From contig JAQGDQ010000088.1 in the NCBI GenBank assembly GCA_030141605.1, forward strand, positions 496,001 through 560,000: a stretch of DNA of 64,000 bases, written 5' to 3'. The notes under the pieces are model-generated. The model saw only the letters and a program-made list of their open reading frames with translations. It was not told where the DNA came from and did no database searches. The position numbers and the translations under genes are program-made. How positions within the stretch are numbered: the first letter of the stretch is position 1; each line of letters opens with the position of its first letter. Shown here piece after piece: positions 5,243 through 62,478 of this stretch. The stretch is from Tubiluchus corallicola (Eukaryota > Priapulida > Priapulimorpha > Priapulimorphida > Tubiluchidae).

Positions 5243-6200
5243 TATATATATATATATAATAATCTTTATTTGCCATTAAAAACATTGATAATCACTGATA
5301 AAAACTTTATAGAGATAATCAATCAGTGTTAGTTAATAAAAACTTACACTGCTGAAGGCAAATGCGTCAGTGCAATCTAAACTACTGTGCAGTAATGACG
5401 AATAAAATCAAACATATTTACAACTATACACAAAAAAATATAAAAAAAAACTATGATTTAATTAATATGGCCGTGGGTATATGAATTCGGAATTAGTGTG
5501 TATGTTGTCGTACTGGTGTGATGGTATTTCATATCTGGTTAATATTAGTGATTTTAATTTTGTTTTCAATGCTGATAGGGACTTGATTTGTTTAACCTGT
5601 AATGGTAGAGAATTCCAAAGTAAAATTGCTTGTTTGATTACAGAGTTCGTTCCATAGTGGGTATTTGTCCTAATTTGTTTTAGATTGAATGTTCTGGAAT
5701 TAACGATAGGATTTGGAAAAAAGGTAAATCTGTTATTCTGGAATGGTTTGCTGATGTTGTTAATGTATTTAAATATAAAAAGCAGAGTAAAATATTCTTT
5801 GTGTGCTTCAATGATTGGGAATTTTAAAGTTTTTCTCAGGTTAGTTGTTGAAGCTTTGAATTTTTGTCTACCTGCCTTGTGTTTGTATGAGTACCCAGCT
5901 ATCAATCTCAATGCATAGTTTTGAAGGAGATTTAATTTTAAGTAATTTTCTCTTTTGGTTTTTTGAAGTAGCGTACATCCATATAAGAAGTGTGGTAGAA
6001 CTAAAGTTTTATATATTAGTGTTTTAGTTTCCTTTGTTAGTTGCCCTTTAACTTGTCGGAGATATGATGTGCTAGATGCCATTTTTGTGTATATGTTATT
6101 AAAGTGATCATCCCATGAAAGATTATTGTCTACTTGTATGCCCAGGAATTTAACATTGTTAGTTTGTTTGATTACAGCATTATCTATTGTCAAAGTGGAT
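5243..6200 (-). mobile_element. 5'-truncated LINE (CR1/L2/Jockey-like)
   Basis: A minus-strand copy. The 3' end carries ATGGCAAATAAAGATTATTA and a (TA)n tail at 5243-5260. The open frame is 5462-6193, followed by a ~220-bp 3' UTR. The 5' end is cut off near 6200, typical of incomplete target-primed reverse transcription. Confidence 0.8.
5462..6193 (-). CDS. LINE reverse-transcriptase C-terminal part
   Basis: About 243 codons without a stop, entered from the truncated 5' side; the first codon is TTG, so this is not a true start. Residues 14-27 (VKFLGIQVDNNLSW) are the reverse-transcriptase thumb block of CR1/L2/Jockey-type LINEs. The segment TLVLPHFLYGCTL and the C-terminal block with LLWNSLPLQVKQIKSLSALK are also typical of this group. 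The catalytic Asp-containing palm motifs are missing because of the 5' truncation, so it cannot be active by itself. The lack of internal stops suggests a fairly recent insertion. Confidence 0.8.
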   Translation of the reverse strand: MTIDNAVIKQTNNVKFLGIQVDNNLSWDDHFNNIYTKMASSTSYLRQVKGQLTKETKTLIYKTLVLPHFLYGCTLLQKTKRENYLKLNLLQNYALRLIAGYSYKHKAGRQKFKASTTNLRKTLKFPIIEAHKEYFTLLFIFKYINNISKPFQNNRFTFFPNPIVNSRTFNLKQIRTNTHYGTNSVIKQAILLWNSLPLQVKQIKSLSALKTKLKSLILTRYEIPSHQYDNIHTNSEFIYPRPY

Positions 6201-8628: not shown

Positions 8629-10077
8629 TTAAGTGTTATCATAATCAACAGGAGGCGGCTGTGGTGGGGAAACTTGCTGGTGGAGTGAAGGGGACTTTTC
8701 ATTTTTTGTTTCTGGGCCTGGAGTAGGTGGAGTCACCTCTAACACTGGAAGACTGCTTTGCGGTTGAAGACGTTGTTTTTTATCAGAGACAGATTGCATG
8801 TGTTCATCCATTATGGCATCAAGAGAAGCACCAATATTTAAAACCCCTCTTTTGCAGTATCGAGTAGGCTTCCCATTGCTAGGTCTATCTCCAGGATCCT
8901 GAAAGATTTTCTTTAACTCCTCGTTTATTTGTTTTGTTTCAGGTGGCATAGTGGCAGTAACAGAAGATTGTGCAGAGGAGGAAGCTGAGTCTCTACTATC
9001 ACTACTATCAGATCGTGCCCCAACTTTTAATATAGGTTTCTTTTTTAGTCTGTCCTTGGGTAACATTCCGATATCACTAAAGTCTGAATCACTTTGCACA
9101 GTCTCTGCACGAATGAGAGTCCGTCGACTTAGGTGCTTTGGCACTTTCTTGTCAGCAGACTTTTTGCCATTGCTTACTGAATCACTCATTGTGGAAGTTG
9201 GGATAATAGTTTGAGGTACTGGTTTAGTCCCTGTTTCACTTTCTGTGTCACTATAAACAAGTGCACATTTAGTTTGTGGAATGATTTGTGGCTGCTTGCC
9301 ATGTCTTTCAGATAGCACAGGGTCAGATTCAGAAAACTCTGAGTCACTGGCGCCATAACCATGTGGCTTGGAACTGCCACAGCCGCTTTTGTGTGACGAA
9401 AACTTTTTCTTTCCACCTGGTATTACAATAATTTTTGGTTCAAGTATTGGCGTACTAGCCTTCTCTTTTTCTACTGCATATTTTTCTGATGACACTGACC
9501 GAGTCCTTTTCACCACTTCAGCAGCATTTTTGTTATCTGTTCGGGGTAGTACTGTGGTTGGTTTGGGGGCAACAGCAGGTTTTGCAGCTGCCTTTAAATT
9601 CACACCACCAACAATATCTATTGTACGAAGCTGCTCCAAAGATGTCGTCCTTGGATATGGAAGGGGTGGTTCGTCATCATCACGGATTTCGTTTCCACTT
9701 CGTTGGGCAGCAGGCATTCCTGTTAGCACCTTTTCTGACCATTTTAGAGAAGAAGAACGTGGTAAAGGTTGAGGTCTCTCGGTAAATGAATTACAGTCTG
9801 CTACCTCACGTGGCTTTTTCCCCTTTTGCTGGGGTAATGATTTCGGACGATCCCTTTTTCCAGGATAATTATTGGATGCACCATCACGCATTTGAACACG
9901 ACTTGTGCTGTTCATTTCATGCCACGCACAATTCGGTGGCACACCACTATCAAACAATTCAGTCATCCCGACACTTGCTCCGTGAGGCAGAAGTGGCGAG
10001 GCACCACCAGGATACTGCCCTTCCATATCGGTTGACTGTTGTGCAGTTCTGTGGGCTGATTCCAAATTACAGTGGTC
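8629..10077 (-). CDS. Neto: Neto exon 9: cytoplasmic tail
   Basis: The acceptor TTATAG|GAC lies at 10078/10077 and the stop TAA at 8629-8631. This single exon encodes residues 381-862. It has no recognisable folded domain and looks disordered: Pro-rich segments (PKPTTVLPRT; the C-terminal PQPPPVDYDNT), several basic-x-x-Ser motifs (PRSSSLKW, PRTTSLEQL, KRTRSVSSEKY) suited to basophilic kinases, and three acidic Ser clusters (SDSEFSESD, YSDTESETG, QSDSDFSD) suited to casein kinase 2. The C-terminus DYDNT is not a classical PDZ ligand. It probably scaffolds intracellular partners, but this is inferred. Plus-strand open frames here are shadows. Confidence 0.9.
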   Translation of the reverse strand, partial: DHCNLESAHRTAQQSTDMEGQYPGGASPLLPHGASVGMTELFDSGVPPNCAWHEMNSTSRVQMRDGASNNYPGKRDRPKSLPQQKGKKPREVADCNSFTERPQPLPRSSSLKWSEKVLTGMPAAQRSGNEIRDDDEPPLPYPRTTSLEQLRTIDIVGGVNLKAAAKPAVAPKPTTVLPRTDNKNAAEVVKRTRSVSSEKYAVEKEKASTPILEPKIIVIPGGKKKFSSHKSGCGSSKPHGYGASDSEFSESDPVLSERHGKQPQIIPQTKCALVYSDTESETGTKPVPQTIIPTSTMSDSVSNGKKSADKKVPKHLSRRTLIRAETVQSDSDFSDIGMLPKDRLKKKPILKVGARSDSSDSRDSASSSAQSSVTATMPPETKQINEELKKIFQDPGDRPSNGKPTRYCKRGVLNIGASLDAIMDEHMQSVSDKKQRLQPQSSLPVLEVTPPTPGPETKNEKSPSLHQQVSPPQPPPVDYDNT

Positions 10078-13000
10078 CTATAACCAAAATATAATGTTAA
10101 AAACCAATTTGCAATATCGGACACGGCTGTCACAAGGTAAAAGGAATTTGTAATTGTTTAAACAAGTTATGTTAGCTAAACCAACATTTGCAGCTAGAAG
10201 AAGAAGAAGATAGAGCGCTAAGAGATTAAAAATCTAATTTTTTTCAGTGGCCTTTTTTCTATGAGAACATTCAAAATAGCAAAGAAATTTGTTGGTGACA
10301 TACAATCTTCACACGTACAAAGAGTGGAATGTCCGTCACTCATCCATATCTATTGTGTTAATCGTTCTTGCCACTATATCTGGAAGTTTTATCACATGGA
10401 ATTAAAAATTTTACTATAGAAAATTTTGAATGGTTATGTGGCCAAAACTATTATTGGAAAGCAGTAATTATGGGTGTTCGCTACGCAGTTTGTTAAAGAA
10501 GAGGATCTATGCACAAATTACGCAGTAGACCTATCATTATCTATAGTATAGTTTAGGGAGCCGTACCTAATGATGGTAGTAATAATAACGAACTCCTGTT
10601 TTCGAGCTGCCATTAGCAAGTGAATAGAAATTAGTATCGGTCAGTTGAAGGAATTGCTGATGGGAAGAGTTGTGATGCCGTGTCCGAGGTGATTCAAGGT
10701 ATGTCTGTAAATCCGGCACAGAATCTTGATCACTTACACTCGGCTGTAATAATTTTATGCCTTTTTAATTCCTATTGTTATTGCTTACATAAGTAAAGCC
10801 ACACAAATTTAAAATATGTTATTCTGCTGAGACTGTGTGATTTGTTCTCTAGCCCAATGACAATTGCAGTATTATGTGCTAAATTAATGACACAGACACA
10901 ATAATTTATATTTTACAACCAACTGTGAAAGTGTACATATTATCTCTCTCTATATATAATATGTGGTGCCATCCATTGACTAAAAAGAAAAGGTATCATA
11001 AGTTGCAGCTATAATTTACGGCAATGAGCCAGAAGCTATAGAGCTACATACTACCTTTAAGACAGAAATACGTCAATGCTACAGCACCATACTACTTTCA
11101 ACAAAAATTACCCAACTCTGACTGTATATGCAGTGGAAGACACCTTGTGAAAGTCAAAATAATTTACCACATCAAATATACGAACAAGCAAAACGATGTA
11201 GCACATCAAAGGTTAGGGTTTTATCAAAGGTTAAACTTATGAAAAAGCACAGACCCAATGATGTAGTATAGGATGGAAAGTATGAATCAGTATCCATGCA
11301 GCTTCGTGAGGCAGTGGCACTTATCACTGATACGTTTTTAGCAACATCAGACTTCAACAAAAAGTTCTTTTTTGACAGTAGAGTTTGCTGAATTTCACAT
11401 TGGTGGACTAAAATGAGGCTGCAGATTTAGAACCTCATTACTTAGAGGCAAGATGCTAAGGATAAAAAGGATAAAACAATGAAGAAACGCTGGACTTGAT
11501 TAAAAAATGGATCAGTGACTTTCACGACTATTCTTGGCACAATTCACGTCGCATTGTAACATGATATGACATGATGTGACATGATATGATATGATATGAC
11601 ATGATATATGATACTGGTGTATATGCCACGGCTAGCTAAGCAGTATCATGTTAGAGCGCCTCTTTCTTGTCTATGGATGGTGCCACAAGTCACGTTCTAC
11701 GCAGTATACAAATGTTTTTGTATTCCTATTCTCTAAAAAGTATTAATGACTCAGAGTCAACAAAATCGAATCGAGTAATAGACTACTCACTAGCCACACT
11801 AAGTTCAGAAATAACTTTTTTGTAATCTTATTACTTGTGGCTTTTGAGATGTCACTTTAGAATACATTAGGCCTTCAAATAATTATTACTGTTGCACTTA
11901 TCGAAGCCTATTATTAACCGTGTACAGTCAGTTGAGCACAGAAAATAATGTACATATATACGAATATGGCAGTTACGTGTTATGATTGTATTACCTGAAG
12001 GTGTCTTCGCTGTGCCCGTTTGCGGCAACAACAACAACAGCACACGACGATAATAATGATGATGACAAAAGCGACACCTCCAGCAACACCAGCAATCAAG
12101 TATACAACTTTCGGGTCTGTAAGAATGCCAGGATGCGAATCCATTGTTGTGCTTTCTGTAGGGGCTGAAATAGAAAGTAAAGGTACAGTTTGTGGCATCG
12201 GTATGTGACTTTTACACAGGCTAATCGACTAAAAACGAAAAAAAAGAATGAAAAAACACTGCGATACATACATACACACGCACGCGTGCGCACAACACAC
12301 ATACACACATACACGCACAACGTACCGGTCACAAAATCCAAACCAGAATTTGTCATTACTCTTATACCGCGAATCGCGTGAAATAATGCGCAAATTCAGA
12401 CTCGAGAAATCCGCTGAAAGTAGTAGAACCGTCAGTAAAGAAAATGTTACACACGCATTGGCGCAAAAGTAACATCCGACTTCGTAATAATAAGAAAATT
12501 AACTATATGTATTGCGCTTTTGTTTTTTTCTGCTACAATAAACTGTAAACACATCTGGTGCAACTAGTCAGAAAAACTGTACTCAAAGAAATTTTAGCGG
12601 GATTTTTCTTGTTTGCGCCATGTAATTTATATTTAAAAATACGTCGCGGCAGACGACAACAGGCAGCACTACATTGGCGCAACAAACAAAAACCGTAGTG
12701 TCGCAATAATAACTATGCCAGCTGTAGAGCACAATTTTCCAGCACCCATAGCCTGCTGGTATATGAACAAAATTTAGACTGACACAACAAACAGTTTGCC
12801 TAAATTTTGTTTAAGACGGCTCAGCGCGAATGCAAAATTCTCTGATGCGAAGTTAGCGTATTCTACAGATTATACTTCTCTTTTACGTCACACGCAGTGT
12901 GTATTTTAAATCGTAAGTACTTTATCAATATGGTCAAAATACTGAGATAGTGAGAAAAAAGTCGTTGAGTTGATGCACAAACAATACGTGGGTATTCAAA

Positions 13001-16000: not shown

Positions 16001-19000
16001 AAGTTTGTTAAATGATCAGCTTATAATACGTGCCTGCATTCAAATTCATGGATAAATCAATTATCTGTATTTAGTTTGGTGGTAAGTCGATTAACTTTAA
16101 GCTAATTGCGAGTTGCAAGACTGAAGCCGCCCTACTTTTTTAAACAAAGTTAGCTCGGTATCATCGTACGGTATACAGCAGGAATAAATTTGCATGTGAT
16201 TACAGGGTTGAAACATCTCGGTTTTAGGAATATGAATTGTCAAAATATTTAAGCTGATTTCAACACGGTACATATTAGGACCATGATATCCGATTATAAA
16301 AAATCTTTTTATAAGCACATTTTTTATTAATCGGATGGCAAAAAATCTGGTTATAATCACACTTTTTGATAATCGGAGGGCAAAAAACTGATTATAACCA
16401 GTTTTTTATAATCGAACAGAAAACGAAAAAAATCTGGTTATAGCCAGGTTTTTTATAATTGGATATAACGACCCTAATACGCTTTCGTATGAATCAGCAA
16501 AAAACTTAAAAGTCTTCACCATGGCTGTGATAATATTCACAGGGTTGCTCCCGCAGTGACGGCTAACATATGGAAACCTCAACTAAGCATAAGAAAAGAA
16601 ATAGATGATGTCTGTTCAGCTACATGTCTTTATAATGGCAAGTATAGAGAATAAGTACCGTAAAATGCAAATAAACCCCCAGGTTGTTTTGATTGGCTTG
16701 TCCACGAACACCACGACTAAAACACATTGAAAAATAAAAAAACTCGACGAGATAGCGTAGCAGCAGTAACGAAATCTTCAATCCAATGAAAAAAAAAATT
16801 CTACAAGTACGCACTTGTGTTAGAGTAAAAGAAAAACGAAGCGGAGTGATCTTAACTCTACTGTAATTGCAGTTTCAAATTTCGAACGAGGAGTCCACAA
16901 AATTGTCAGAAAAAACCAGTAAACTGTTATGTGCGTGTTATGACAGCTTGTTGTTTCAGCTGTTTGGCAAGACGAAAAATTTAATCAATGTTCAAGAGTT
17001 CGTCGAGAGATTCTGTCGTTTTTTTGCCACATGGAATTATTTTCATTGGTGGTGCGCAGTGTCAAGATTTCATCAATCATTCCAATTGGTTTTAAATAGA
17101 GAATAAAAATACTGAAACGGCATAGATCCATTTAAATTAGGAGATTAACTGTCAATAAAGTCTCGAGACTCTTCCTCAAGAAACTTGCAGTCTTACAGTT
17201 TTAGTAAAGGAAATAAAGAGGGTCCTGTGTTATAATGTATAAGTTACTGCAAGAAACTTTCATTAACCAGATCCAATCTTATCACCGGGGTTATGAAGGT
17301 TGTTGGCAATAAAAAAATTCATTTCTACGAACTTCTTCTACAACTTTGTGGCACCTAAACGTATGTCTTGCAACTTTCCAAAGATCCACATTAGGGGACA
17401 TAACTGGAACTCCGGTCCCTCTCTTGTTTTCCTTTTCTTTCAGATCCACTCAACTAAGCGTGAAAGTCTAGCTGAGTCTAGTTCATCTCATTCCAACTTT
17501 ACTCATATATCAACTCACTTATCATACATCTCTTTACTAGATACTCAGTTTGCTTGATTGGTCAATGTGCATGAAAACAGCAATGCCAACGCCGCTTTTA
17601 CCTTTTTGATCTTTAACTTATCAACACACGCTTTTACAAAACTTCTTTGTCACAGTGTCACAGTTGTCTTTGTCATGTTAATTATTTAATTAGTTACCAT
17701 TGCCTGTTGACTAATTAGGAAGTATACAGGCAGATACAAGTGTGTTGAAACAAGGTACACAAGTATATCAAGGCAAAAGCAAATGTATAGATGTGCCCAG
17801 ACCGGTAAGGACAAATCCAGATGTGGTGAAACAGGTCTGTAAAAGACAGACTTGCCTTATAGCTTTATAACAGAGGTACCAGACAAACAATAAGCAGTTT
17901 TCAATAAAAAGTAATGTAAAATTAGTGTTAAATACCTCACATTAGTTAATTATTATCATTTTGACTATTCTAAAAATGTTACACAGTTGCACACTAACCA
18001 AGTGTTGGACATTCCCTCTCATCCCAGTCCATGAAACAATTGACAAAACCATTGCAGACTAGCGTTTTATTGATGCAGATACCACCGCCACAATCGAATT
18101 CCATTTTTAGATTGCACATGCCTATAAAAAATAGGGTATAGACTAGAGAGACGAAGTAGCAGAACAACAGCAGCCGAGGAAAGGATAATAGCGATAACAG
18201 TAGTAACTGTAACTGCTGCAAAAACAATAGTACATAATTTGTTGTCTACAACGTCGTTTTTATTTAAGCAGTAAAAGGTGTTTTAATACTTTTTCAAAAG
18301 CTTGCAAACGACAAAACATGACCAGGAAAGTGGTAACAATTTTTTAAGAAATATACATCACTCAAGACAAGTTTTCTCGTATTCATCATGACCTGCAAAA
18401 GTCATATACGTTTCACTGGGAAACTGGGCTGTAAGCCTAATCATTTTTTCTAAAACCAATGATGAGGCCAGCAGAAAAGCAACATAGGTGTTGTAAGATT
18501 GCTTTGTGTATGTTTCTTTGGATACGAATGCGGAATAATTTCTCTAAGGGTTTGAGAGTACCATCCACTGAACTCAAAAATACAGAATAAAATTTTAGTT
18601 TTGGACGCTGTAATATTTATAAGATTAAAAATAGTTTTAAGAAAATAATGTGTACATAACAGTCTATAACATTAATGCCCTACCTAAGCAAAATTAATTT
18701 AAAAACGTCACATTTCTTCTGCTTTCCAGTCTGCACAATTGTAAGCCTAATATTAACGATTTCATTCTAGGTTTTGAAATTGTAAAAGTTGTCTTCAAAA
18801 AATCCAATCTATTGAACTTACGAAAACTAGTTTGTTATTTACATGACTTAGCCCGCGTATTAGTGTCTAATACACGATCTACTGTAACCTGACGAAATTG
18901 TGATATGGGCTGTTTACACCAGGGTCTATTTTCAGCTTAGCCTGGGATTGTCACTGGAGATCCTTAAATAACCAAACATCATCTGCATGTTACTGCAATG

Positions 19001-22000
19001 TGTATAGTGCAGGGTTTCCAGGCTTTTCACAACATTACGTGTCTAACCAAACTGCAAGCCCGAACTGAATATTTGGGTCGAACGGTTGGATTAACTCTGA
19101 ATTAGAATAATAAAACGGAAGCAATGTAGGTTGCTTTGGTATGCATGTAGGCCTAATAAGTTAGTCCAACACGCTATATTGAATATATTATAAAACTATA
19201 AATGCTTGCAGATCATTAGAAATGCAATATCTCCTACGTAGAACTAGACATTCCATAGAATTGTGATCATTTAATTTATTTTGTATGTTAACTAGAGGCT
19301 ACGTTATATTCGAATGTTTTTAATCCACTAAGCAGAGTTGAAGTGGGCCACGTTACTTAGAGACGGTGTGTGTTAACGATACCTGCTACACAGGAGTAGA
19401 TATTACATTGTTAAGTGCTATTGACTTCAGTGATCCTGAAATACTACAACAAGTTGTAACATTTTAGTGATATTTCCTTGTGAGATTGTGAATTAGATAC
19501 GACTCCGTATGCCACATATGAGGATGTGAATTACATAAGCTCCTAACTTCAGACAACAAAATAAGCTTGCCCTACGCGACTGAAAATTCTGCCCATTTAT
19601 TCGTATTTTGGACGAAAAAATGTTCAGTGACACAAGTTGGTCTCCTTTGTGACCTGGGGTATAATGTATTTGATGCATTACAATGATACTAGTATTACAT
19701 TTTGAATTCTCCGAGGTTATGACTTACGCATAAAAATGCCTTGTTGCAAATTGTTATGGTTCAATAGTATTATAGTACCAAAGTTATTCAATGTGACAAA
19801 AAACTAGCTATTCAGTATTCACTATACTACACATGTAACTTTTAGAACATACCTATAAACAAATTTACTTACATATTTATTTTGTATAGCGATCATCTTG
19901 ATGTATTATACGTGTCGACAAAAAAATAATGATGGTAATTGCAATCGAATAATAAAATTAGTACCGACGAAATTATATTACACTAAGCTTACCCAAAATT
20001 TTAGTCCGGCTATTAGTAACGATGAAAATAACATTGTAATAATTAGGTGCACTGTAGCAAAAGTGACTGTAATATCTTGAAATATCTTGAAGGCGACTGT
20101 GCAGTAGAGATAGATAAACTGTTGTGTATTCAATTTAGTTAATTACAACAAGAACAGCAACAGTAAGAAGAAACGATATATGGCACTAGCAGCCCAGCAG
20201 CGTAAAAAATTATATAATTAAACTTACCACTTCTGTACATGGTGAAACTTCCTTGAAACGAACTCCCTGGTTTGGAGTATAATCGTACAAACAGTCTATT
20301 ATACACGGATTTTATGTGGTGATTACTGAGTTTGCTGCAATGCCGCTTTTTTCGCAGAACATGTGTATTGCCGTCGTATGTCTCAAGGAAATTCTTGTGA
20401 CAATTTCCGTCGCTGAGCAATCTTACATAATCCAGCTTTAGATAAATCTGCATCAAAAAAGGCAAATGCTTTTGATAAAAATGTTAACTTTTTTGTAACG
20501 ATCATTTTTTGTTGCGTCTTATAGGTCGTACCTCTGTGTAAAATAATCGTTAATTTACCTAATAAACCCTAGCTAAGAAACCACAGATACTGTTAGGTGT
20601 GTGCTGAATGGATGTCTTATTGTAATCAAATTTTTAAAGGGGTTTATCGCTTAAAATAGGGGTCAATGGCCAAATAGTAAAAAACTTCTTATGCACTTGT
20701 TTTTCGAATTCAAACTTATATTAGAAAGAAAAGTGATAAGGTCCTTTTGACGCGCATCAAAATACGTTGGAGTGTATACCAATGTATAACAAGAATTCTA
20801 ACTTCTAAATAGCGTGTCCTGACTAGAATTGTCCAAAACTGCATCTATATAAAAATTAATGCAAACAGCTAGTATTCAGTACATTTATCGAATGTAGGGG
20901 AAAATGGCGCGGGTAAAAAATAGCACGGTAAGAATGGCACAGGTAAAATGGGATAGGATTAGTGGACACAAATGGAAAAGCAGAAGAAAATGACACATGT
21001 TATTTTGATACAAATAATTTCTGTAATAGAACTAGAATGACATTAATCGATGATTGAGCATAATCCTCAATTATTTCCATGAACTAGGCCCTACGCGCGT
21101 AAATTTAAAATTTTTTGACATTAATTTTTTTCCACACTCAACAGCAGTAATATCTCTTTTGTCTATTCAGTGGCATAGCCTACAACTTACGGGCGCCATG
21201 AAAAATGTGAGGCAAATGATCCCAGATAGCATTCATTATTGAGCAGATGAAGCTGCAACTACTTGAAATTATTCCCAATTCACCAGAGACCAATAGACAA
21301 GGAAAGATTTTACAGCGTGGCCGCCGTGGCGGTTTAATATGTTTCATGCTCTTGTGATATAGCTCATTCATTGCTAAGAACATGTTTTATCCTTATCTAG
21401 GACGATTTAGAAAAAAATCTAATTTCAACAAAAGTAATAACATCATAATAATACAAAGCTTTGGTGCCTTCAACGTACTTGTGATCTTTCTTAGGTTTTC
21501 AATTCACTATAGCCAGAATTTAAAAATGTCAGCAATGTGTTTTTTAACAGCATTATTATAAAGGATATTTCTTGCATGATGTAATAATTTGGGGATTCCT
21601 TATATATGAAATCGTCTAGAAACAAGTTCGATTCCAAGTAATGGACAGACTCATCGACCTCGAGATTGTGTTCATCAAAAATCTAGCTCTGCCAATACAT
21701 GCGAAATTTGTTCTAGTATATTTATTTGCATGCTTAGGTTTGCCTTTAGGTTTTTAAGTTCTTTTTAGAAAATGCTATCAATACGGCCATTCATGATGAC
21801 AACTCGAAATCCGACTTCGTTAGTCGATGTTCCTATAAAGTTTCAGTAAGTTCCTATAAAGTTTCATGACGATCCGTTGGGAATTAGACATTTCTGAAAT
21901 GATATTATTACCACCATCTTGAATTTAAAATGGCTGATCAAAAAACCAACTCCGTCAATCGACGTGGAATTCATTCTAGTATATTCGTGGGAAATTTCTT

Positions 22001-25000: not shown

Positions 25001-27291
25001 ACGTCGTAAAGACTACTAGGGTTCTCTAAGGCACATGTCTAACTGCAAACTAACGTGGACGTTACTGGCCTCGCCATCATAAACTGTTACAAAACTAAAA
25101 TTTACATTTGAAGGCAACAAAAATTTTCTCCACGAAGCTGAAAGTTCACATACAAAAAACTACTAGCGCGGATATTTTCTCATCTCTTAAAATGTTATTA
25201 GCCTTTTGTGATTTGGTGCTGACGGCGATTGAACTCAGGGGGTTGCGTGTTCGGCGGGATCGGGGATCGGCGGGTTCGGGGTTGGGGTTTGGGATTGATA
25301 TATGAGTTCGAAGTCGGGACTTCGAGATTTGCTATGAAATCGTCAGGATGGGATTCGTGGAGGGACCAAAAGTTCAGGATTGTTGTTCCCAAACCCATAT
25401 ATATATATATATATATATATTGTAATTATGTATGTTATATATATAACATCTTTTGTAATAAAACATAAACAAAATGTACAGTAATAAAATCACAATACAT
25501 ACAAATAATTGTGTATGTTCAGTCTTTGGAATGATGTTTTACAATAGTGTGAGATTGTTAGTAAATCATACATGTACTTGGATAAAAACATTGATGAAGC
25601 GACGTTTACCGACAATATAATTACCCGTAAATCCAGATAAAAATGACAGCGAAATTAATTCATTCTCTCTCCCACTTCCACACCCAATTTTAGCTCGAAT
25701 TTAAGCGTAATACAAATCTCTGCTCTAACCTATTCATATTTCGATAATTGCGATATGATTCACCCAGCCCGAGAGAGTGAGTGACTAAGAACCGTTAGTT
25801 GCTTGAGCGAATTTCAGATAGGAAAAATAAAGTAGCAGTGAGACAAAAATAACATAAAATATTTCCGTTAGACAGTCTCATTTTTTTACAAATGTAGTTT
25901 TCACATACTATTCCAAATTACACCCACCTTGGGTCAAGACTCATCGCGGATGTGAGTTCCCAGAATAAACTAGACGCATTCACAAATAACTGAATGCACT
26001 TTCTCTGTGTGTGCCGTGAACAAGGTTATTCGTAAAATGTTTAAAAAACAACGGAACTTTGACAATCACTGGATGCAGCCATAGTTAACAATATCTAAAT
26101 AAAAATGTTTTACCGCAAAATTTAAGCTGTAAATAACTAGGTAAATTTTCTGATGAACCGCCAAAAGTCCAAAACTAAAGTAAATATGTTGTTTTTTGTC
26201 AAATATTATATACTTTAATTTGGGGTTGGGATCGGTGTCAAGAGGTTCGGGAATGGGGTCGAGACAAGGCCGAATGTTCAGAACGGGGTTCGGGATTTGA
26301 GAAAAGTGCAGTATCGACGTTAGGGGATAGAGATCATGATCTTCAAAGGTTCAAATGCTTTAAATACTCAGTCCACACTGCGAAGAGCCGGACACTGGCA
26401 CTCTGGCGGAGATTTTCTGTAAATCGACGGCATAACCGAAGAGAGGACATTTGACTGTGTACACTGCAGGGAGACCAAGACTGGACAAGAGCGGTCTGAA
26501 GTTAGTGCGAACAGTAACTTACATAGACAATTGAGATCTTGTTCGGACGAGATTTGGCATTGAAAAATCAGGCATTACAAAAAATATAATGATGTAGTTA
26601 AGAAATACAATGCAAGCACTACTTTGATAAGTCCTTATCGATGCTGCAAGCAAAAATAGCACAGTCATACTGTTGTAGCAGTGTGCCATATCTTAATAGA
26701 CATACCTCTTCATATGAAAGCAGGTATAAAATTTCTTACTTACAAGGACTAGGCAGAAAAGTATAAACAGCGTGAAAGCCCTGATATTCAATCGTCTCAT
26801 CAGAATGAAAAATAAGCCACATATAACGGCCAGTAGAGTTGAGCCTTGGAGGAGGTGAGTCACCACAGAAATGACCCAGCAGAGGTGCGTAGCCCATCCT
26901 GCCGTCTCTGACCTGCGAAATACAGTTATATTATTTGTTAAAGGTATGCATATATTTACTACACAATGAAAACGGTAACGACCAAATTACCATTAGTCAC
27001 TAATATCATGTTCTCGCTGTCTGAACCATACAATATGACAACTATATGCATTAACAGATTACGTGAACAGCTGCCACCATTTTCTTCACAAAGTAAGTGT
27101 AAACATAGTTTTACGATACCCATTAAGTTGTCAGTAACAGAATACCTAACTGAAAACGAAGGAATGTTTGCAACGTAACAGTGTAAAACCATACATTATT
27201 TTATTATAACGTCATGCAAACATTTTGACAAGTCTGTCTCTTCCCGCTTCTCTTTCTCTTTCTCCGTCTCTCTCTCTCTATCTTTTTCTGT

Positions 27292-27387
<96 letters not shown>

Positions 27388-30300
27388 CTTTCTCTTTTTT
27401 TCTCTCTCCGAGCTTTTTTGTCTTTCTCCATCTCACTCCATCAGTCTTTCTGCGTTATTTCAAACAGCAATAAAACAATTCTAATTTTTATTTCATTTTT
27501 ATTATTTACATTTAGATTACCATGTACATGTGTGTGTATCCGGCTTACCTCTAAAAAGTCGTAAGGGCACTGAAGTTGCTTAAGACTGGACGATTCAGCT
27601 TCAACGTGAAACTGATTCCTAAAGTCTAACTGAACTACCATGCTTGCAGGAGCTGCAAATAAACAACGTATTTATTTTATTTAATTTTACTTCGAGCTCG
27701 TCAAACACTATTTTGTAATTACATATAATAAGGAAAACAAAAATACACCATTTTTGATCGCAAGGCCCACCAGTTTACAATCCTTGAACTTGCTTCTAAA
27801 CAGGTGTCACCGAATAATGAGCATTATACAGTAACTATTCTAGCAATGTTTGTACGTTGATGTCGCTATAACTAAAATTTTAATTGAACTAATATAAGCT
27901 AGTGCATCTCTAACTAAAATCTTAATTTCTAAATTTAAAAGATAAGAAAGCCAAAAAGAGGGTTAAAAATTGTATTTAGTCGCGCTGAGTAACAATACTT
28001 TTTACAAAACGGGACTTTTGCTCGTTTTGAGCGAAATCTCATTACGTTACGAAAAGCGGTTATCAAGAAAATTTTCTATGTTGAGGTTTTGTGAAGAGCG
28101 CTTTCAAAGTAAAATACCGCAAATTTAATGCAGAGGCGGCACTCTATACATTATCAACAAGTTGTTTTATTGCCTTCAGTTACAAGCTAATAATAGTATG
28201 CCGCGATGTGAAAAACCGTGAAAACGCTGATGCTCACTTTTATACCATCACCCAAATTGACTAATTTCACAAACCATTAACCATTTCCAGAAATTCACAT
28301 CAGAGTAACACTAGTTAATAATTTCGAAATAGTCCACAGTTCATACTCACTAGATTATAATAAAGAGATCCTATTTAGTGCATGGAAAAAGAATTACTTT
28401 GTAGAACGTGATTGCATTAATTGGGGACACACTCGATAATTGCGAGATTATCTTCAAGTATTTGATTATTGGAAACGTTTAATTAACTTGTGCTTATAAC
28501 GCGGCTGCTAACAATGGATTCTTAGCTAAGCATGAATAGATTTAGATATTCGCAAGCGATTCTTGTGTAAATTTATTAGTCGTAACTGTCAAATAACTTC
28601 GCATCAATGGAAAGCATTTGCTGCGCTTCAGAAAGATGCAATTTCGCCAAACATCATATCGTTTCCCTACTGAGACTTATAATGGTGGATGATGGCGAAA
28701 TGGTGAATCTTTGCTCAGTTTGTAATGTACGGAGACCATTTGGTTCTTGCTAATGAACTGGCAGATAAGTACGCACTTTCTGAAGAGCAAATAATGTTAT
28801 TATTCCGCAGGGAATAATCTCCCAGTTCTTAAAATAAAATTATTTCTTATGGAAGCATTCTGACATTGGTAATTTGTTCGTCTTGGCAGCTCATAATCAC
28901 TTACAAAAGTGGAGGGTCATATTCGTTTACAATCCGCCTGGACACAGCAGTAATCTTTATCGGTGCGTTTTAATTGAGCATAAGAGAAAGCGAGGAATAA
29001 CGAGAACTTTCAGTTTGCAATAATGAATAAGTTTAATGAAATTTTGTCAAGCAATAGCATGTATACTGCAAGATGGAAGTTGCTAATCGATTTCGTTACA
29101 AAGTCAGAATAAAACGAAAAAAGTTGAAAATAAAACTATAAATAGTGGTGGCTGTATAAACTTATAATTAATCCAATTTTGATGATAAATTCCAAAAATT
29201 GAAAATGCGAAAAGTTGGAATACACTCTGAATTTCAACCAGGGACCTACCGCTTTCAAGGCAGACTCCTCAAGCCATCAGGGCACTGTATTATCAAGGCA
29301 GTCTCAACTTCATCTTTTAGGCCTATAACAGACCAACCATAGGTGGCCCGAAACTAAAATTTCAGGCTCAAAATTGGTCAAAAACAAAAATTAATCTGAT
29401 TGATTAGAATCACTCTAGTGTGACTGATCTAACACTGACAATGCATTTGGTTGGCCAGTTATAACTTATAAGGGATGAACATTGAACTGCCTTAATGACT
29501 GGCGAAATAACCTGGGAATGATTGTCCGCCTTGTATGCAGAAGGCCCTTGTCTCAAATCCAGGCTGTAATCCAACTTTTGATGTTTCCTGTCTTTGAAGG
29601 TTTGTATTAGTTGTACGTTTGTATCATCAATCACAATAATCCTGGCATTAATTGTTCACTCACTTCGGACAGTGAGTTCAGTAAACCTAGATTCACCCAC
29701 CAGGCAGACCGAAGCCGTTTTACATCAGAACGTGTGCTACTTCGCCAGGCAAATAAAAAACTTCCATGAATAATTAACTTTGAATGCGCCGTGAAAATAT
29801 GACAATAATTCCGCCCAGTATATAGTTTGTAGAGCGAATTGGTTGGTTTTGCGCCTACAACTCTACGTTTCTACATTTGTAGTCTAGATTTAGAATACAT
29901 AGCAATCTGCTGGTAGCATAAAATTTAATCTATGCCACTCACAAATGAATGGATCTATAGCTTAGTAATTATTACGGATCAGAAATCTGTTTGCTTTATA
30001 CCTTGTTCAATCAACCTTGTCATTGCTAGGTAAAACTATTAAGACAGATTCTCAGTCCCTCACAAGAAGTGATTGTTTCACTACTTTTCTCAGGAGGTTC
30101 TTTTCCTAAAACTCACCGTCTTCATTAATGCGATCGTTTTCAAATTTTACAAGATCAATGCTATGTAAGGTAGATCTATTATGTGTCACTTACATAAAGT
30201 ACCTATTAATAAAATATGAAAAATATACTGGCGCCCTGGAGAATAGCTTGGTAAATATAAATGGAAGTCATTATTCATGGCTACCTTGTCAGCATTTTTT

Positions 30301-33300: not shown

Positions 33301-36300
33301 TAACTTCTATTTATTGCCTATAGTAAAGCTTAATAATTAATTTCATTTTACGTGTGGCCAAAACATGGGACATTTATAGTGAGTGACCTTACAGCATCAA
33401 TAACAGCAATGCGGGAATAAAAAAGCCTATGTTTGTAATATAGTATATAATACACAGCATATTGATACCTTCTTTCAAAAAATAGTGAAAAAAATTATTT
33501 TTCACATCGGTTTTTGAGATTATATTATCAAAAATAGTAGGCCTATTTGATTTACTTCACTTATATTAATTTAAAGTACTTGGGTAAGCTAATAAGTATA
33601 GGAAAGAACATATGTACTTAATTGAAGGAATTTTGGGGATAGAGCTCTGCCAAGATGACGAAAATGTTTTATGCTATCAGGCTGGCTGGCGATACGTGCA
33701 AGCGTTCTGTTATGTAGCTAGTAAATAGCATTTATATATCTGATTTCAAATGTCAGTGAAGATGGTTAAACTTAAAAAATGTGTTTTAGCCTGCTGAAGT
33801 GCAATTTCGACGTCAACACGTTAGACCTTTAACTTGTTACGCATTGTGCAAAAAAATTTCAAAAACGCTAAAAGATCATGTTGAAATTACCTTCGATTAT
33901 TCGTACACAATCTGTGTTGTTGGGATAATTATGAGGATAATTGGGCGTGTAAAAAGCCTTCATTTCTGGGTTTCCTATTGTGAAGTTGTAACACTTAGAA
34001 GGTGTAAAACTTCTTGATGAGCGTCGCGTATCATCAGCTACAAGCTTCAAATGTTCTACCTTTTCACCTGAAAATATAAAACAGTCTTCAATGATATTAT
34101 GCCATTTGCTTTGTTATTCTACCGTTGACAACGCGCGGACAGCAAATTGCATGCGTCAGTTTCTCAGGCAAGACGTCTACAAACAAGCGTGTTTATTTTC
34201 CGTTCCAAAGCGAACTTTGTATAATTACATATAAAATTGCTCAAAACCCTTCTTTTAAGCCAGGTCACGCGTTGTTTTTCCAAAACCTTGGCCACTTGTC
34301 ACAAAATACGATATGATATCTTCACAAGCAAACCAGCCCAACTTTAGTTCACGATTGATGTCGAGCAAAGTAGATTTTCAGTGAAGGAAATTGTAAGAAA
34401 CGTTATCTTTAATTTTTTCTTAAACATGCAATCAAAAAGGAAAGACTACGTTAAAAGGATTGTTCTTGCTATTAAAATGCAGTAAAGTGGAGACAGGCGA
34501 GTCAGTCACAGAAATGTAGCTGTCCTGGTTGTTGTGATATACACCTTGTTTTACTATAATATTGTCCTACACATTTTATTTCTGGTGAACGACATACTGT
34601 GGATTTTGTTTCAAAGAACACCAAAAAATCTTTTCACTGAGTCACAGAACATCTAAAACAACGTTCAATTCCATTTAATTTTTGCTGTATTCCGAGATCC
34701 TAAAGCATATGTGTAGATTCAAAATTTATCTACATGGATTTATTTCAAACTGCATTAAGTAAAACAAATTCGCTTACAACACATTAACTCAATTTACTGC
34801 CTCTCTTTTTTCAATTTCTTCTATTACAGAGTTCTGTGCTAACATCAGGCAGAGCGCATGAGCTAATAATGCTTCAGTTGTACTATTGTGATTGTACTTT
34901 TGCACGTGATTGTTATCGTTTTTCAGTTCAGCAATATAGTAATTATGGTAATCAGCATTTTTGACGCTTTTAACCTTTCTGCAAAAAGACCATCACAAAT
35001 TATAACTTGTAGCTCCTAGCAGACTCATTATAAAATCTGTCAAAAACACCGATATTCCAAAGCGAACTTTGTATAATTACATATAAAATTGCTCAAAACC
35101 CTTCTTTTAAGCCAGGTCACGCGTTGTTTTTCCAAAACCTTGGCCACTTGTCACAAAATACGATATGATATCTTCACAAGCAAACCAGCCCAACTTTAGT
35201 TCACGATTGATGTCGAGCAAAGTAGATTTTCAGTGAAGGAAATTGTAAGAAACGTTATCTTTAATTTTTTCTTAAACGTCAACTTTAAATCAAGATATTA
35301 CACCGCATTGCCCTGAAGCTAAGTTTTTTAGGCAAGTAATAAATCTAAGGAAATAAATAAGTGCCAAATAATAAATCTTTCGTCTATACATACAAATATA
35401 AAATATACGTTTACGAGTTATTAAATCCGCGTGCATTAAAAAAAGTATGTGCATATTTGTCAACTTACTACTTTATTGAACGAACATCTCATTGAGTTAA
35501 TGACATTACATAGGCGTAAGGGAGGAAGTTTCACAAAGGAAGTAGAAGGAATTTGCCCTGAAAACTTTCTAATTTGCCCGAGCCTACATGCCTTCGAAAT
35601 AAGTGTATCATACTTATATAGGATATAAACTGACAAGATAAAAAACAAAACATTTATAGGGCCAGATTTAGATGAAGGGAATCACTCATCTTGTCAGATC
35701 CATGCGCAACTCCCACCGTGCATCGCCTAACCCAAATTCTCATGGCAAGAGAACGATGGAAATGCTTTTTAAACAAAGTCTAGGATAATTACCAGGTTTT
35801 AATGGAGAACCGCAATTTACAATTTTTTCTAATCGGAATTTCTATTCCAAATGATTTCTATTCCGTCTGATACAACAGCATTGTTAAATGTTGCAGTGAA
35901 CGCAAACGTTTACATAATGTTAGAATAAAGATTATGAAAAAACTTTTTGCAAAACTGATTTTTTCGGATATTTTCATTTTTCAAGCAGAAATTAGCAGAA
36001 TTATTTACAGAAATGAAATGTAGGTTTACTTTTCCATTCTTTAAAGCCTGATAGCTTACTTTTTCATACTTGTGCATTTCAAGTATTTTTTTAAATATTC
36101 AATATTAAATTTGAAAATTTTACAATTATTTACCCTGAAAATAAATAGCTTTTGCCAGTGGCGTCGTGCCATAGGGGCCCGGGGGGTGCCGGGCCCCCAA
36201 TTTTTTTAGAAAATGTCAAAAATTTGAAGGGCGTCAGCGGTTCGTAATGAGACCGGTAAGCAAATTTATTTCCGACTTTTTGACACGCGGCCAGCGCTCC

Positions 36301-38910
36301 ATAAATGCGAACAGTATGAGCATGAGTATGTGTTTACCTGAAAGTCAGGATGTAGTTAATTTGTTTGCCTGTAATCTATCTATTCAGGAGGCAGGCAGGA
36401 ACAGTTAACAAAGCAGCTCGTTGAGTAGCATTAGCGTCTTTGCACAAAAGACTGTTAGTTAACAAAACGGCTCAGTTAGCACTCGAGCTTCGTTCAGCAG
36501 TGTGTTATAATAGAGAATAAGTGAAATAATAGAGCAAAAACAATGCAAACATTGAAGTCATGTTGAGCTTGCCTAGTACCAGAGAGTCAGTTTGTCCAGC
36601 TAGCCTAGTACCAGAGAGTCGGTTTGGGAGATACCAATTGATGAGCCACGGCTCAGCCACCTCCTGATTGGACATTAACGACTCTTTGCTACTCCTTAGT
36701 GACTCTTTCCCACGAGTTTGCTGCATAAAAGGGCGTGATTTTGAGCACATTTCATCATTTTTCTGCTGCTAGGAAAATCTTTGCTAGTTTTCGCTGCGAT
36801 TTTAGCTATATTTCTTAAACGATGTCGAGGCAGTCCAATCTGACTTCATTTTTCAAGTCCAACCGTGTTCCCGACCCAGGTTCTACGGCGTCTGTATCTA
36901 CTGTAACGTCGATTCCAACAGAACGAATCCAAAAGGATGAGTACATCCGTCGAGGGCCATTGCGGGACGTAGTGGATGCATACCCAAAGACCAAAATGGG
37001 AGGAAAATCGAGATCATTTCAGGGTCAGTTGTTCAACGATAGGTCATGGTTGGAATACGTAAAGGATATTGATGCTCTGCGTCGTTGGTTCTGCGTCGGA
37101 TTCCTGACAGCTGATAAATACTTAATTAAATTTTAATTTAATTTTTAATTTTAATTAAGTTTCCGTTGCTATAGCTTTAAGTTAAATGCCATGTTAAATA
37201 AATCGTTTTTCTTGCACGCAAAATACTGTTTATTTTTTTTTCAAAATTAAATTTTCAAAATTTAAAATTAAAATTTAAACAGTTAAAATCCGCCATTATA
37301 GTCGGGCCCCCCCAATTTTTTTGGGTGCACGACGCCCCTGGCTTTTGCCTTAAAAATGTAAAATTTATTTGCTCTGGGAGGGTAACCGCCTCCCCGCTCA
37401 TGACTCCCGTCTCGTACGCCTATGATTGACAAACATGTCCATGCAATCAAAAAGGAAAGACTACGTTAAAAGGATTGTTCTTGCTATTAAAATGCAGTAA
37501 AGTGGAGACAGGCGATATACACCTTGTTTTACTATAATATTGTCCTACACATTTTATTTCTGGTGAACGACATACTGTGGATTTTGTTTCAAAGAACACC
37601 AAAAAATCTTTTCACTGAGTCACAGAACATCTAAAACAACGTTCAATTCCATTTAAATTTTTGCTGTATTCCGAGATCCTAAAGCATATGTGTAGATTCA
37701 AAATTTATCTACATGGATTTATTTCAAACTGCATTAAGTAAAACAAATTCGCTTACAACACATTAACTCAATTTACTGCCTCTCTTTTTTCAATTTCTTC
37801 TATTACAGAGTTCTGTGCTAACATCAGGCAGAGCGCATGAGCTAATAATGCTTCAGTTGTACTATTGTGATTGTACTTTTGCACGTGATTGTTATCGTTT
37901 TTCAGTTCAGCAATATAGTAATTATGGTAATCAGCATTTTTGACGCTTTTAACCTTTCTGCAAAAAGACCATCACAAATTATAACTTGTAGCTCCTAGCA
38001 GACTCATTATAAAATCTGCCAAAAACACCGATTTTCTAGATCTAACTTTTGTTATATAATAACTTCCAGGAAAGTAAAAGTCACTTTTTCCAGTGACAGG
38101 AAACAATGAATATTTAAAAAGTGCAATATGATTTGAATAAAATTTCATTAATAACGTATTAGGCCTTCAAGTGTACTCTATCAATGCTAATACGAGCTAC
38201 CAGACATGTAAACGTTTACGTAAATTGGAAAGTAAAGTTAATCATCTTCTCTTCCTGCTACCGACAGAGCAGTTAACACAGATGCAGCGATGAGCATCTA
38301 GCCTGCAGCGTATTGTATAGGGTGATCCGAATAAAAGATTGAGCATTTCAATACAGAATTGGTTGCTCTAAGGAATATAGAAGTCTTGAAAGGAAGATTA
38401 AATACTTGAAAAAAGATAAATAAGAAAAGCCGACAATTTAATTATTAAATTAACTGCCCTGCAATTGAAAACGCTAGTCATCGATTTAAAATAATTACAA
38501 CGTATTATCATATCTTGGAGCCCTAACTAGTTTTCAGTTCATAATATCTTGTAATAGCACACGTCATGTATACTATATAATACCATAATAATCAACTTAG
38601 ATAGCAATTTCCTCACAGTGGTATTAATAATGTAAACTAGGTGTCAGTAAGTGATAACTATAAGCAAGTGGAATATTTTTCACTTGACATGTTTAAGTTT
38701 ATACGATGGTACATGAATTGGATGCTGCACGTTGCAAAATAGATGAACATTTGAACTACACAAGAAAATCTAGTACAGAAAGCATAGTCATAACTTGAAT
38801 AATACGTCATTAGAAGCTTTATCTGACGCCGTAAGCTGTATACAAATAAAAAACAAACTTTAGGAAGACTTACCAGAGCATGTCCAGATTATCCATAATG
38901 AAAAAGCCAT
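8629..38910 (-). CDS. Neto: Neto-type CUB/LDLa transmembrane protein (whole gene)
   Basis: Nine coding exons join to an 862-residue protein: 38874-38910, 33891-34067, 27549-27652, 26744-26912, 22676-22815, 20228-20447, 17999-18121, 11995-12164 and 8629-10077. Phases agree at all eight junctions. Order: short hydrophobic leader (1-13), CUB1 (about 38-157, Cys 38, 66, 100, 122), CUB2 (about 164-281, Cys 164, 198, 225, 246), LDLa (285-320, six Cys), transmembrane helix (343-364), Cys6 (365-370), basic stop-transfer, long tail. This order, and the LDLa core CINKTLVCNG, match the family neuropilin and tolloid-like, known as auxiliary subunits of kainate-type (vertebrates) and neuromuscular (fly) glutamate receptors. 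The tail is much longer than in vertebrate NETO1/2 (whole proteins about 530 residues). N-glycosylation motifs occur at 40, 62, 131, 178 and 300. The upstream start remains the least certain part. Confidence 0.93.
10078..11994 (-). other. Neto intron 8
   Basis: A 1.9-kb intron, phase 0. Apart from the pentanucleotide repeat near 11,560 I see nothing of note. Confidence 0.75.
11560..11612 (+). repeat. pentanucleotide tandem repeat (ATGAY)n
   Basis: About ten imperfect copies of ATGAT/ATGAC in a row, within Neto intron 8. Confidence 0.75.
11995..12164 (-). CDS. Neto: Neto exon 8: transmembrane segment
   Basis: Acceptor TTTCAG|CCCC at 12165/12164 and donor CTTCAG|GTAATA at 11995/11994. It encodes residues 325-380: a short Ser/Thr-rich stalk, a 22-residue hydrophobic helix starting at VVYLIAGVAGG and ending in a run of Ile/Val, then six consecutive cysteines, then RKRAQRR. 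The basic cluster directly after the cysteines sets the C-terminus in the cytosol (type I topology). The upstream junction is phase 1 (G|CC gives Ala), the downstream junction phase 0. Confidence 0.93.
12165..17998 (-). other. Neto intron 7
   Basis: A 5.8-kb intron. It contains the hairpin MITE at 16273-16479 and a lone hAT-like terminus near 14711. No other exon is supported; small open frames near 13.7-14.8 kb and 16.6-17.6 kb look random. Confidence 0.7.
16273..16479. mobile_element. hairpin-rich MITE, TA-flanked (pogo/Tigger-like ends)
   Basis: The ends read TATTAGGACCATGATATCC on the left and, on the opposite strand from the right, TATTAGGGTCGTTATATCC. The imperfect terminal inverted repeats continue into ATTATAAAAAA. 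Inside are three to four units with palindromic cores such as CTGATTATAACCAG followed by TTTTTTATAATCG. A TA dinucleotide flanks each end, as expected for Tc1/mariner-superfamily insertion. There is no coding capacity. The class assignment rests on TIR style only. Confidence 0.6.
17999..18121 (-). CDS. Neto: Neto exon 7: LDLa domain
   Basis: Acceptor TATAG|GCATG at 18122/18121; donor CTTG|GTTAGT at 17999/17998. Forty whole codons, phase 1 on both sides, hold one complete LDL-receptor class A module with Cys 285, 293, 298, 305, 311 and 320 and the C-terminal acidic motif DWDEREC that normally helps bind calcium. The stretch CINKTLVCNG is almost the same as in vertebrate NETO proteins (from memory), and includes an N-glycosylation site. 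A symmetric phase 1-1 exon is usual for shuffled extracellular modules. Confidence 0.95.
18122..20227 (-). other. Neto intron 6
   Basis: A 2.1-kb intron with no repeat or exon that I recognise. Confidence 0.7.
20228..20447 (-). CDS. Neto: Neto exon 6: CUB2 second half
   Basis: Acceptor GATGCAG|ATTTATC at 20448/20447; donor AAGTG|GTAAGT at 20228/20227. Encodes residues 210-282: IYLKLDYVRLL, then Cys 225 and Cys 246 (the second disulfide pair of a CUB domain), YDGN, and the closing strand FQGSFTMYRS. It starts in phase 0 and ends in phase 1. The open frame extends further upstream into intron sequence, but the CUB pattern fixes the acceptor. Confidence 0.93.
20448..22675 (-). other. Neto intron 5
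   Basis: A 2.2-kb intron, phase 0. Positions 21,780-22,050 contain repeat-like phrases (TTCCTATAAAGTTTCA twice, a 'CATCTTGAATTTAAAATGGC' segment) that suggest an old interspersed repeat. The 86-codon open frame at 22248-22508 has no supporting features. Confidence 0.6.
22676..22815 (-). CDS. Neto: Neto exon 5: CUB2 first half
   Basis: This short exon has no ORF long enough to stand out. Acceptor CTATTATAG|ACTGTG at 22816/22815; residues 164-209 run from CVTVIEGKEEGYINNST to DCGWDIQVPVGYN. This is the CUB opening: first Cys, the N-glycosylated strand, and the C-W-x-I-x-x-P-x-G block. I chose the donor AAT|GTAACT at 22676/22675 because it keeps phase 0 and gives VGYN-IYLKLDY. The alternative GTAAAA donor a few bases downstream would create a stop codon at the junction. 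Confidence 0.9.
22816..26743 (-). other. Neto intron 4
   Basis: A 3.9-kb intron, phase 1. It contains one copy of the GC-ended repeat at 25230-26340, a (TA)n tract at 25398-25420 and a strongly purine-rich plus strand at about 23,090-23,290 and 23,700-23,900. Confidence 0.7.
25230..26340 (+). repeat. interspersed repeat with GC-rich ends, copy 1
   Basis: Both ends are G-rich with repeated phrases such as GGGATCGGGG, GGTTCGGG and GGGATTTGAG, while the middle is AT-rich. A related copy lies inverted at 56035-57118. Shared blocks include ATTTTAGCTC, ATGATTCACCCA, and an AAAACT-AAAGTAAA stretch followed by the G-rich end. It has no readable protein. The class is unknown. Confidence 0.55.
26744..26912 (-). 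CDS. Neto: Neto exon 4: CUB1 second half
   Basis: Acceptor TTTCGCAG|GTCAG at 26913/26912; donor CCTT|GTAAGT at 26744/26743. Encodes residues 107-162: VRDGRMGYAPLLGHFCGD with the fourth CUB cysteine at 122, the STGRYMWLIFHSD strand and GFHAVYTFLPSP. This block is the closest to vertebrate NETO of the whole protein (from memory: V-R-D-G, LLG/IIG, FCG, S-S/T-G-R-F/Y). Phase 0 at entry, phase 1 at exit; the split codon T|AC gives Tyr 163. Confidence 0.94.
26913..27548 (-). other. Neto intron 3, with long dinucleotide repeat
   Basis: The shortest Neto intron (636 bp), phase 0. About a quarter of it is the pyrimidine-CA-pyrimidine tract at 27238-27440. Confidence 0.8.
27295..27385 (+). repeat. (CA)n microsatellite flanked by CT-rich tracts
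   Basis: About 45 uninterrupted CA units, with CT/TTTC-rich sequence on both sides (27238-27294 and 27386-27440). On the Neto sense strand this is (TG)n within purine-rich flanks, starting about 160 bp downstream of exon 3. Confidence 0.97.
27549..27652 (-). CDS. Neto: Neto exon 3: CUB1 middle
   Basis: Acceptor TTTGCAG|CTCC at 27653/27652; donor TTAGAG|GTAAGC at 27549/27548. Encodes residues 73-106: PASMVVQLDFRNQFHVE, a Ser/Leu-rich loop, Cys 100 and PYDFLE. Joined to exon 2 it gives the CUB core C-V-R-I-I-E-A-P (split codon G|CT = Ala 72), and to exon 4 it gives YDFLE-VRDG. Both joints reproduce the expected CUB consensus. Confidence 0.93.
29150..29305 (-). mobile_element. tRNA-derived SINE, copy 1
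   Basis: Read on the minus strand, the head looks like a decayed tRNA: A-box-like GATGGCTTGAGGAG (29266-29280), then B-box-like GGTTGAAATTC (29229-29239). The body continues with GTGTATTCCAACTTTT, which is shared with the plus-strand copy at 29,550. There is no intact tRNA fold, so I do not call it a tRNA gene. Confidence 0.5.
29490..29640 (+). mobile_element. tRNA-derived SINE, copy 2
   Basis: On the plus strand the segment TCCGCCTTGTATGCAGAAGG, then B-box-like GTCTCAAATCC (29550-29560), then GGCTGTAATCCAACTTTTG aligns with copy 1. The A-box region (about 29507-29520) is poorer. The two copies point away from each other. Confidence 0.5.
33891..34067 (-). CDS. Neto: Neto exon 2: CUB1 start
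   Basis: Acceptor ATTTTCAG|GTGAAAAG at 34068/34067; donor CGAAG|GTAATT at 33891/33890. Encodes residues 14-71: a polar linker with a basic pair (about 14-37), then Cys 38, FTIGNPEMKAF, the CUB hallmark YTPNYPHNYPNN and Cys 66. An N-glycosylation site is at 40. It is entered and left in phase 1. In Neto proteins this first CUB is the one most needed for receptor binding in the literature; here that is only inferred. Confidence 0.93.
36156..37340 (+). mobile_element. hAT transposon, internally deleted, 8-bp TSD
   Basis: The ends are CAGTGGCGTCGTGCC and, from the right on the opposite strand, CAGGGGCGTCGTGCA (13 of 15 match). Both are flanked by the identical 8-bp direct repeat GCTTTTGC (36148-36155 and 37341-37348). 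An 8-bp target duplication with CAG-starting inverted repeats is diagnostic of the hAT superfamily. At 1,185 bp it is far too short for a full transposase and encodes only an N-terminal piece. A 33-bp direct repeat lies near 36571-36625 (GCCTAGTACCAGAGAGTC twice). Confidence 0.93.
36822..37136 (+). pseudogene. hAT transposase N-terminal remnant (TTF-type finger)
   Basis: A 104-codon open frame. The first ~45 residues are Ser/Thr-rich and disordered. Residues ~46-95 (PLRDVVDAYPKT, then KSRSFQGQLFNDRSWLEYV and RWFCVGF) resemble the TTF-type zinc finger that opens many hAT/ZMYM-like transposases. The catalytic DDE core and the dimerisation domain are missing, and the frame ends right where the element becomes AT-rich. 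It is not expected to be functional as a transposase; whether it is translated is unknown. Confidence 0.65.
38874..38910 (-). CDS. Neto: Neto exon 1: signal peptide start
   Basis: ATG at 38910 in a good context (AAGCCATGG) encodes MAFSLWIIWTCS plus one base before the donor CTCTG|GTAAGT at 38874/38873. The phase-1 end fits exon 2 exactly (G|GT = Gly 13). The peptide is hydrophobic as a secretion signal should be, but short. A good acceptor (CTATTTCAG|CTC) lies at 38922/38921, so this exon also carries the end of the 5' UTR or, less likely, more coding sequence from an upstream exon. Confidence 0.75.

Positions 38911-54738: not shown

Positions 54739-62478
<7,740 letters not shown>

Follow-up and report, generated by a model that had tools for sequence, protein, structure and literature searches.

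A Neto family gene of at least nine exons in the priapulid Tubiluchus corallicola, with a divergent cytoplasmic tail and a putative processing site before CUB1

Short minus-strand reading frames between positions 8,629 and 38,910 of a 64,000-nucleotide stretch of Tubiluchus corallicola DNA (assembly GCA_030141605.1, contig JAQGDQ010000088.1, positions 496,001 to 560,000; the whole stretch is called the window here) raise the question of whether they form one gene and, if so, whether that gene belongs to the Neto (neuropilin and tolloid-like) family or to another family built from CUB and LDLa domains. The window is A+T-rich (about 65%) with simple repeats, and was judged from its gene content to be animal DNA; searches of viral and prokaryote contig collections confirmed no relative, as expected for an animal gene, and neither Rfam (at gathering score) nor ARAGORN (for tRNA) reported a hit in the window. 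Minus-strand frames at the locus were taken from stop to stop (at least 35 codons), exon borders were then set by reading the sequence, and the following features were placed:

38874..38910, minus strand: exon 1, coding part from ATG 38910; signal peptide MAFSLWIIWTCS-G, phase 1 donor
33891..34067, minus strand: exon 2; linker, containing the candidate furin site RSSR, and start of CUB1; 32.3 bits against NETO2
27549..27652, minus strand: exon 3; middle of CUB1, placed by the joined alignment only
26744..26912, minus strand: exon 4; second half of CUB1; 68.6 bits and 49% identity against NETO2
22676..22815, minus strand: exon 5; first part of CUB2, placed by the joined alignment only
20228..20447, minus strand: exon 6; second part of CUB2; 29.3 bits against NETO2
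17999..18121, minus strand: exon 7; entire LDLa with six cysteines and an NCxxxWDExxC core like that of NETO2; 43.5 bits
11995..12164, minus strand: exon 8; transmembrane helix, then six cysteines and RKRAQRR; phase 0 donor
10567..10743, minus strand: weak candidate alternative exon between exons 8 and 9; phase 0, 58 codons, TAG directly before gtacgg
8629..10077, minus strand: exon 9; long cytoplasmic tail, 482 aa within the exon; stop codon TAA
8370..8383, minus strand: two AATAAA poly(A) signals (first bases 8383 and 8375), about 245 nt past the stop

When the nine main exons were rebuilt base by base, the coding sequence came to 2589 nt and the product to exactly the 862 residues claimed in the first-pass annotation, whose nine-exon join with consistent phases at eight junctions was likewise recovered: all eight introns (636 to 6238 nt) run from gt to ag, and the junction phases (1, 1, 0, 1, 0, 1, 1, 0) keep every exon in frame. 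An alternative exon 5 with a later donor (exon end 22662), read by eye, was ruled out because splicing it to exon 6 creates a TGA at the join. The same annotation had held that no extracellular domain can be seen within a single open frame, which is true of CUB1 (spread over exons 2 to 4) and CUB2 (exons 5 and 6) and wrong for LDLa, which exon 7 contains in full and in one open frame.

The domains of the product follow the order CUB-CUB-LDLa-TM. In a Pfam search of the joined product plus 10 of the 14 open frames of at least 100 aa in the window, the whole protein matched CUB at E = 4.3e-36 (two stretches within the E limit of 1, the better one at residues 49-156) and LDLa at 24.3 bits, barely over the cutoff of 24.1; the frame of exon 6 by itself gave CUB at E = 0.0032 (18.2 bits, under the cutoff of 21.4). 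Beyond CUB, CUB_2 and LDLa, the scan of the whole protein returned only sub-threshold matches around the helix and none in the tail. The cysteines number four in each CUB domain and six in LDLa. By reading, a single transmembrane helix, VVYLIAGVAGGVAFVIIIIIVV, stands at residues 343-364 after LDLa and is followed by cysteines and basic residues, indicating a type I protein; in the PDB search alignment this helix pairs with that of NETO2.

To assign the family, the ectodomain plus helix was compared with 177,635 distinct PDB sequences. The best match was NETO2 (7f56_E; E = 7.1e-46, 160 bits), with residues 50-365 aligned to 56-368 in a single colinear stretch through CUB1, CUB2, LDLa and the helix; the runners-up were cubilin, with 139.7 bits from four separate stretches combined, and neuropilin-2, with 110.4 bits. 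Correspondence also held domain by domain: CUB1 scored 105 bits against CUB1 of NETO2 and 22.7 against its CUB2, while CUB2 scored 38.1 bits against CUB2 of NETO2 and 14.2 against the other CUB. With CUB2 and LDLa as the query NETO2 was again the top PDB match (E = 3.1e-16 versus 1.1e-6 for the next), and with LDLa as the query it was followed closely by LDLRAD3 (9.4e-6 and 3.5e-5, respectively). Global alignment gave identity to the NETO2 ectodomain and helix at 103 of 295 aligned residues, and all 13 comparable ectodomain cysteines are common to both proteins, a count that omits 3 of 16 columns (the fragment covers neither the first cysteine of CUB1 nor the second one after the helix, and the first one after the helix faces a valine). 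The colinear match, the domain order and the domain-wise correspondence together argue for Neto rather than another CUB/LDLa family, and, within the PDB, the sequence appears closer to Neto than to those families. The earlier identification as Neto, made from domain order and the LDLa core, is therefore supported, and we conclude that the locus is, with little doubt, a protein-coding gene of the Neto family, its role in receptor modulation being taken from its relatives. It is an ordinary new member of a well-known family and architecture.

Three other explanations were weighed. CUB and LDLa domains are common to several kinds of membrane protein, so that the product might instead be a CULD-like endocytic factor, a LEV-10-like acetylcholine-receptor clusterer (LEV-10 has five CUB domains) or an LRP10-like or LDLRAD3-like receptor; LDLRAD3 was second for LDLa by itself, and the comparison covered the PDB, from which these families may be absent. 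However, CULD has one CUB domain (excerpt of PMC4732287), whereas here two CUB domains precede LDLa and the helix, and the match to CUB1, CUB2 and LDLa of NETO2 is position specific, making membership of such a family very unlikely. Codon content supports the gene model neither way: leave-one-out codon log-odds for the nine exons spanned -0.40 to 0.06 bits per codon; with this exon-trained measure, exons and introns (52 intronic frames of at least 58 codons) could not be told apart, and it was set aside as evidence. While exon codon content indistinguishable from that of introns would fit a pseudogene, a decayed copy of a Neto gene is extremely unlikely when all nine exons are open, all eight introns are gt/ag and in phase, the 4+4+6 domain cysteines are kept, and the 1449-nt terminal exon stays open to TAA with AATAAA downstream.

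The third explanation was addressed by searching the raw 64-kb window with a 313-residue NETO2 fragment (tblastn, no exon joining), which listed seven hits at E up to 5. The four best were exons 4, 7, 2 and 6 (68.6, 43.5, 32.3 and 29.3 bits), all on the minus strand and in gene order. When the window was dinucleotide-shuffled 50 times, the best hit scored 22.7 bits at the median and 28.1 bits at most, a ceiling that the fourth hit (exon 6, 29.3 bits) only just exceeds. The remaining three hits (23.1, 20.8 and 20.8 bits) fall outside the exons; that on the plus strand at 54769-54870 (23.1 bits) was rejected as lying inside the shuffle range. Exons 1, 3, 5 and 8 were missed by this search, and therefore rest on the joined alignment, splice sites and phase; exon 9 was missed too, but lies outside the 313-residue fragment. 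A chance assembly, with splice sites picked until frames joined, is barely credible, for although the sites were chosen knowing the frame and cassette-like pairs are common in the introns (39 in 27,693 nt), four exons, unjoined and in order, outscore all 50 shuffled windows and the joined product finds NETO2 with E = 7.1e-46. The gene is more than a chance assembly.

The Neto gene is less firmly bounded at its start. ATG 38910 yields a signal sequence of about 12-13 residues in good start context, and an in-frame ATG at 38955, directly after a stop codon, yields a more hydrophobic leader of 28 residues in poor context (hydropathy scan only for both). An acceptor-like ag between 38955 and 38910 means that a 5' untranslated exon further upstream is also possible. 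Candidate first exons, from an ATG to a phase 1 donor, numbered three at a donor score of at least 8/9 and six at 7/9 or more; other first exons were set aside, as the two most hydrophobic leaders among the six candidates both use the 38874 donor. To call the gene “complete”, as the first-pass annotation did, was thus too strong, given the ambiguous start (ATG 38955 or 38910), the possible upstream 5' untranslated exon and an alternative exon (10743-10567) that it did not mention.

Several repeats and frames elsewhere in the window were recorded. Intron 1 contains near-identical duplications (34203-38049): 34536-35070 and 37514-38049 are 98.7% identical, and 34203-34425 and 35055-35277, as well as 34425-34500 and 37440-37515, are 100% identical. 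Some 2.16 kb (35278-37439) interrupt the second copy and carry a plus-strand frame (36822-37136, 104 aa), which by eye we take to resemble a hAT/ZMYM-type transposon protein and which had no Pfam match at E 0.01. The arrangement suggests either a recent duplication plus an insertion or a misassembly. A minus-strand frame at 5462-6193 (243 aa), which by eye looks like the C terminus of a LINE reverse transcriptase, likewise had no Pfam match at E 0.01. A tandem pair with a unit of about 195 nt (96.9% identical) occupies 45880-46279, and a short repeat array, with copies 83-90% identical, 60474-60686.

Ahead of CUB1 the product holds one RXXR motif (RSSR, residues 28-31), six residues before the first CUB1 cysteine. 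In insect Neto, furin sites of the minimal RXXR type precede CUB1, and Furin1 cleaves off the prodomain of the Drosophila protein, while the region before CUB1 is described as lacking conservation in vertebrate or worm Neto (all from an excerpt of PMC4344203). By analogy with insect Neto, RSSR may be a convertase site, and chance alone can produce a single RXXR where the sequence is basic.

At the opposite end, the tail comprises 492 residues from RKRAQ on and terminates in VDYDNT, which by reading fits neither a class I nor a class II PDZ-binding end. Its last 482 residues had no PDB match up to E 10, the 525-residue NETO2 chain included; Neto tails are reported to diverge between phyla (PMC4408064, in excerpt). 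At the inner end of the helix, where the NETO2 fragment ends, six consecutive cysteine codons form a TGC/TGT run (12025-12042, minus strand), and the first position compared is a valine in NETO2; the run could be a palmitoylation cluster or a repeat expansion.

The candidate exon 10743-10567 has the poorest acceptor of the locus (6 of 15 pyrimidines; the eight main acceptors have 9-13) and a donor of 6/9 (real donors 6 to 8). Over the eight introns (27,693 nt), 39 cassette-like pairs score equally well or better, five of them in the intron between exons 8 and 9 (three nested starts of the candidate itself and two of another exon). Its codon score is 0.05 bits per codon, a value equaled or exceeded by 10 of the 52 intronic frames of at least 58 codons, and its 58 residues had no PDB match up to E 10. 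Given the poorest acceptor and 39 comparable pairs, it is kept as a weak candidate, a lead and not a finding. Its inclusion would swap the tail of ~490 residues for one of ~68. A stop at the last exon junction normally escapes nonsense-mediated decay, and as the stop of this exon abuts that junction, a short-tail transcript should escape it. We regard it as doubtful that this Neto gene has both an N-terminal segment that convertases can cleave and a choice of two tails. In Drosophila, alternative exons that follow the helix give neto its alpha and beta forms, and outside Drosophila that study found the alpha form only in Musca, as far as the excerpt of PMC4408064 goes. If the two-tail reading were true, tail switching like that of Drosophila alpha and beta would be older or would have arisen twice.

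In other animals Neto is a membrane protein that binds glutamate receptors and adjusts them at synapses. Structures of GluK2 with NETO2 place CUB1 on the amino-terminal domain layer of the receptor, CUB2 on the D1 lobe, LDLa on the D2 lobe of the neighbouring dimer and the helix on M1 (excerpts of PMC12580572 and PMC12719658), and Neto or SOL-2 is needed in flies and worms for receptor clustering or gating (excerpt of PMC9083331). As the domain order here is that of NETO2, the same mode of action on glutamate receptors is likely by analogy. The product would be a type I membrane protein in which CUB1 leans on the receptor amino-terminal domain, CUB2 together with LDLa on its ligand-binding domains and the one helix on M1; ionotropic glutamate receptors would be clustered and their gating slowed or reshaped, and the complex would be tethered to scaffolds through the long, divergent tail of Neto in the cytoplasm. 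A bounded Neto gene with a divergent tail and a possible processing site before CUB1 is useful for tracing the evolution of glutamate-receptor partners.

Among known systems, Drosophila CULD is similar by description in combining CUB, LDLa and a transmembrane helix within one protein, but it has one CUB domain and an endocytic role (PMC4732287, excerpt), against two CUB domains here. The C. elegans protein SOL-2 is described as having two CUB domains, one LDLa and one transmembrane helix, as here, and SOL-1 as having four CUB domains (both in the part of PMC9083331 available), yet SOL-2 has 24 residues past the conserved domains (PMC4408064, in part), compared to the 492-residue tail here. Excerpts of PMC7653359 and PMC12226733 contained nothing relevant to the gene. 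Vertebrate NETO2 (PDB 7f56 chain E) shares the CUB1-CUB2-LDLa-TM order, the cysteine pattern and the LDLa NCxxxWDExxC core, and differs in that CUB1 here has six extra residues, the CUB1-CUB2 linker here is 13 residues shorter and the tail here has no similarity to the NETO2 chain; PDZ-binding ends are reported for both NETO1 and NETO2 (excerpt of PMC9083331), whereas the end here is VDYDNT. Drosophila Neto differs by description in its long prodomain, in contrast to the short N-terminal segment here, and is similar by description in having RXXR shortly before CUB1 (PMC4344203, in part) and a long divergent tail encoded after the transmembrane exon (PMC4408064, in part).
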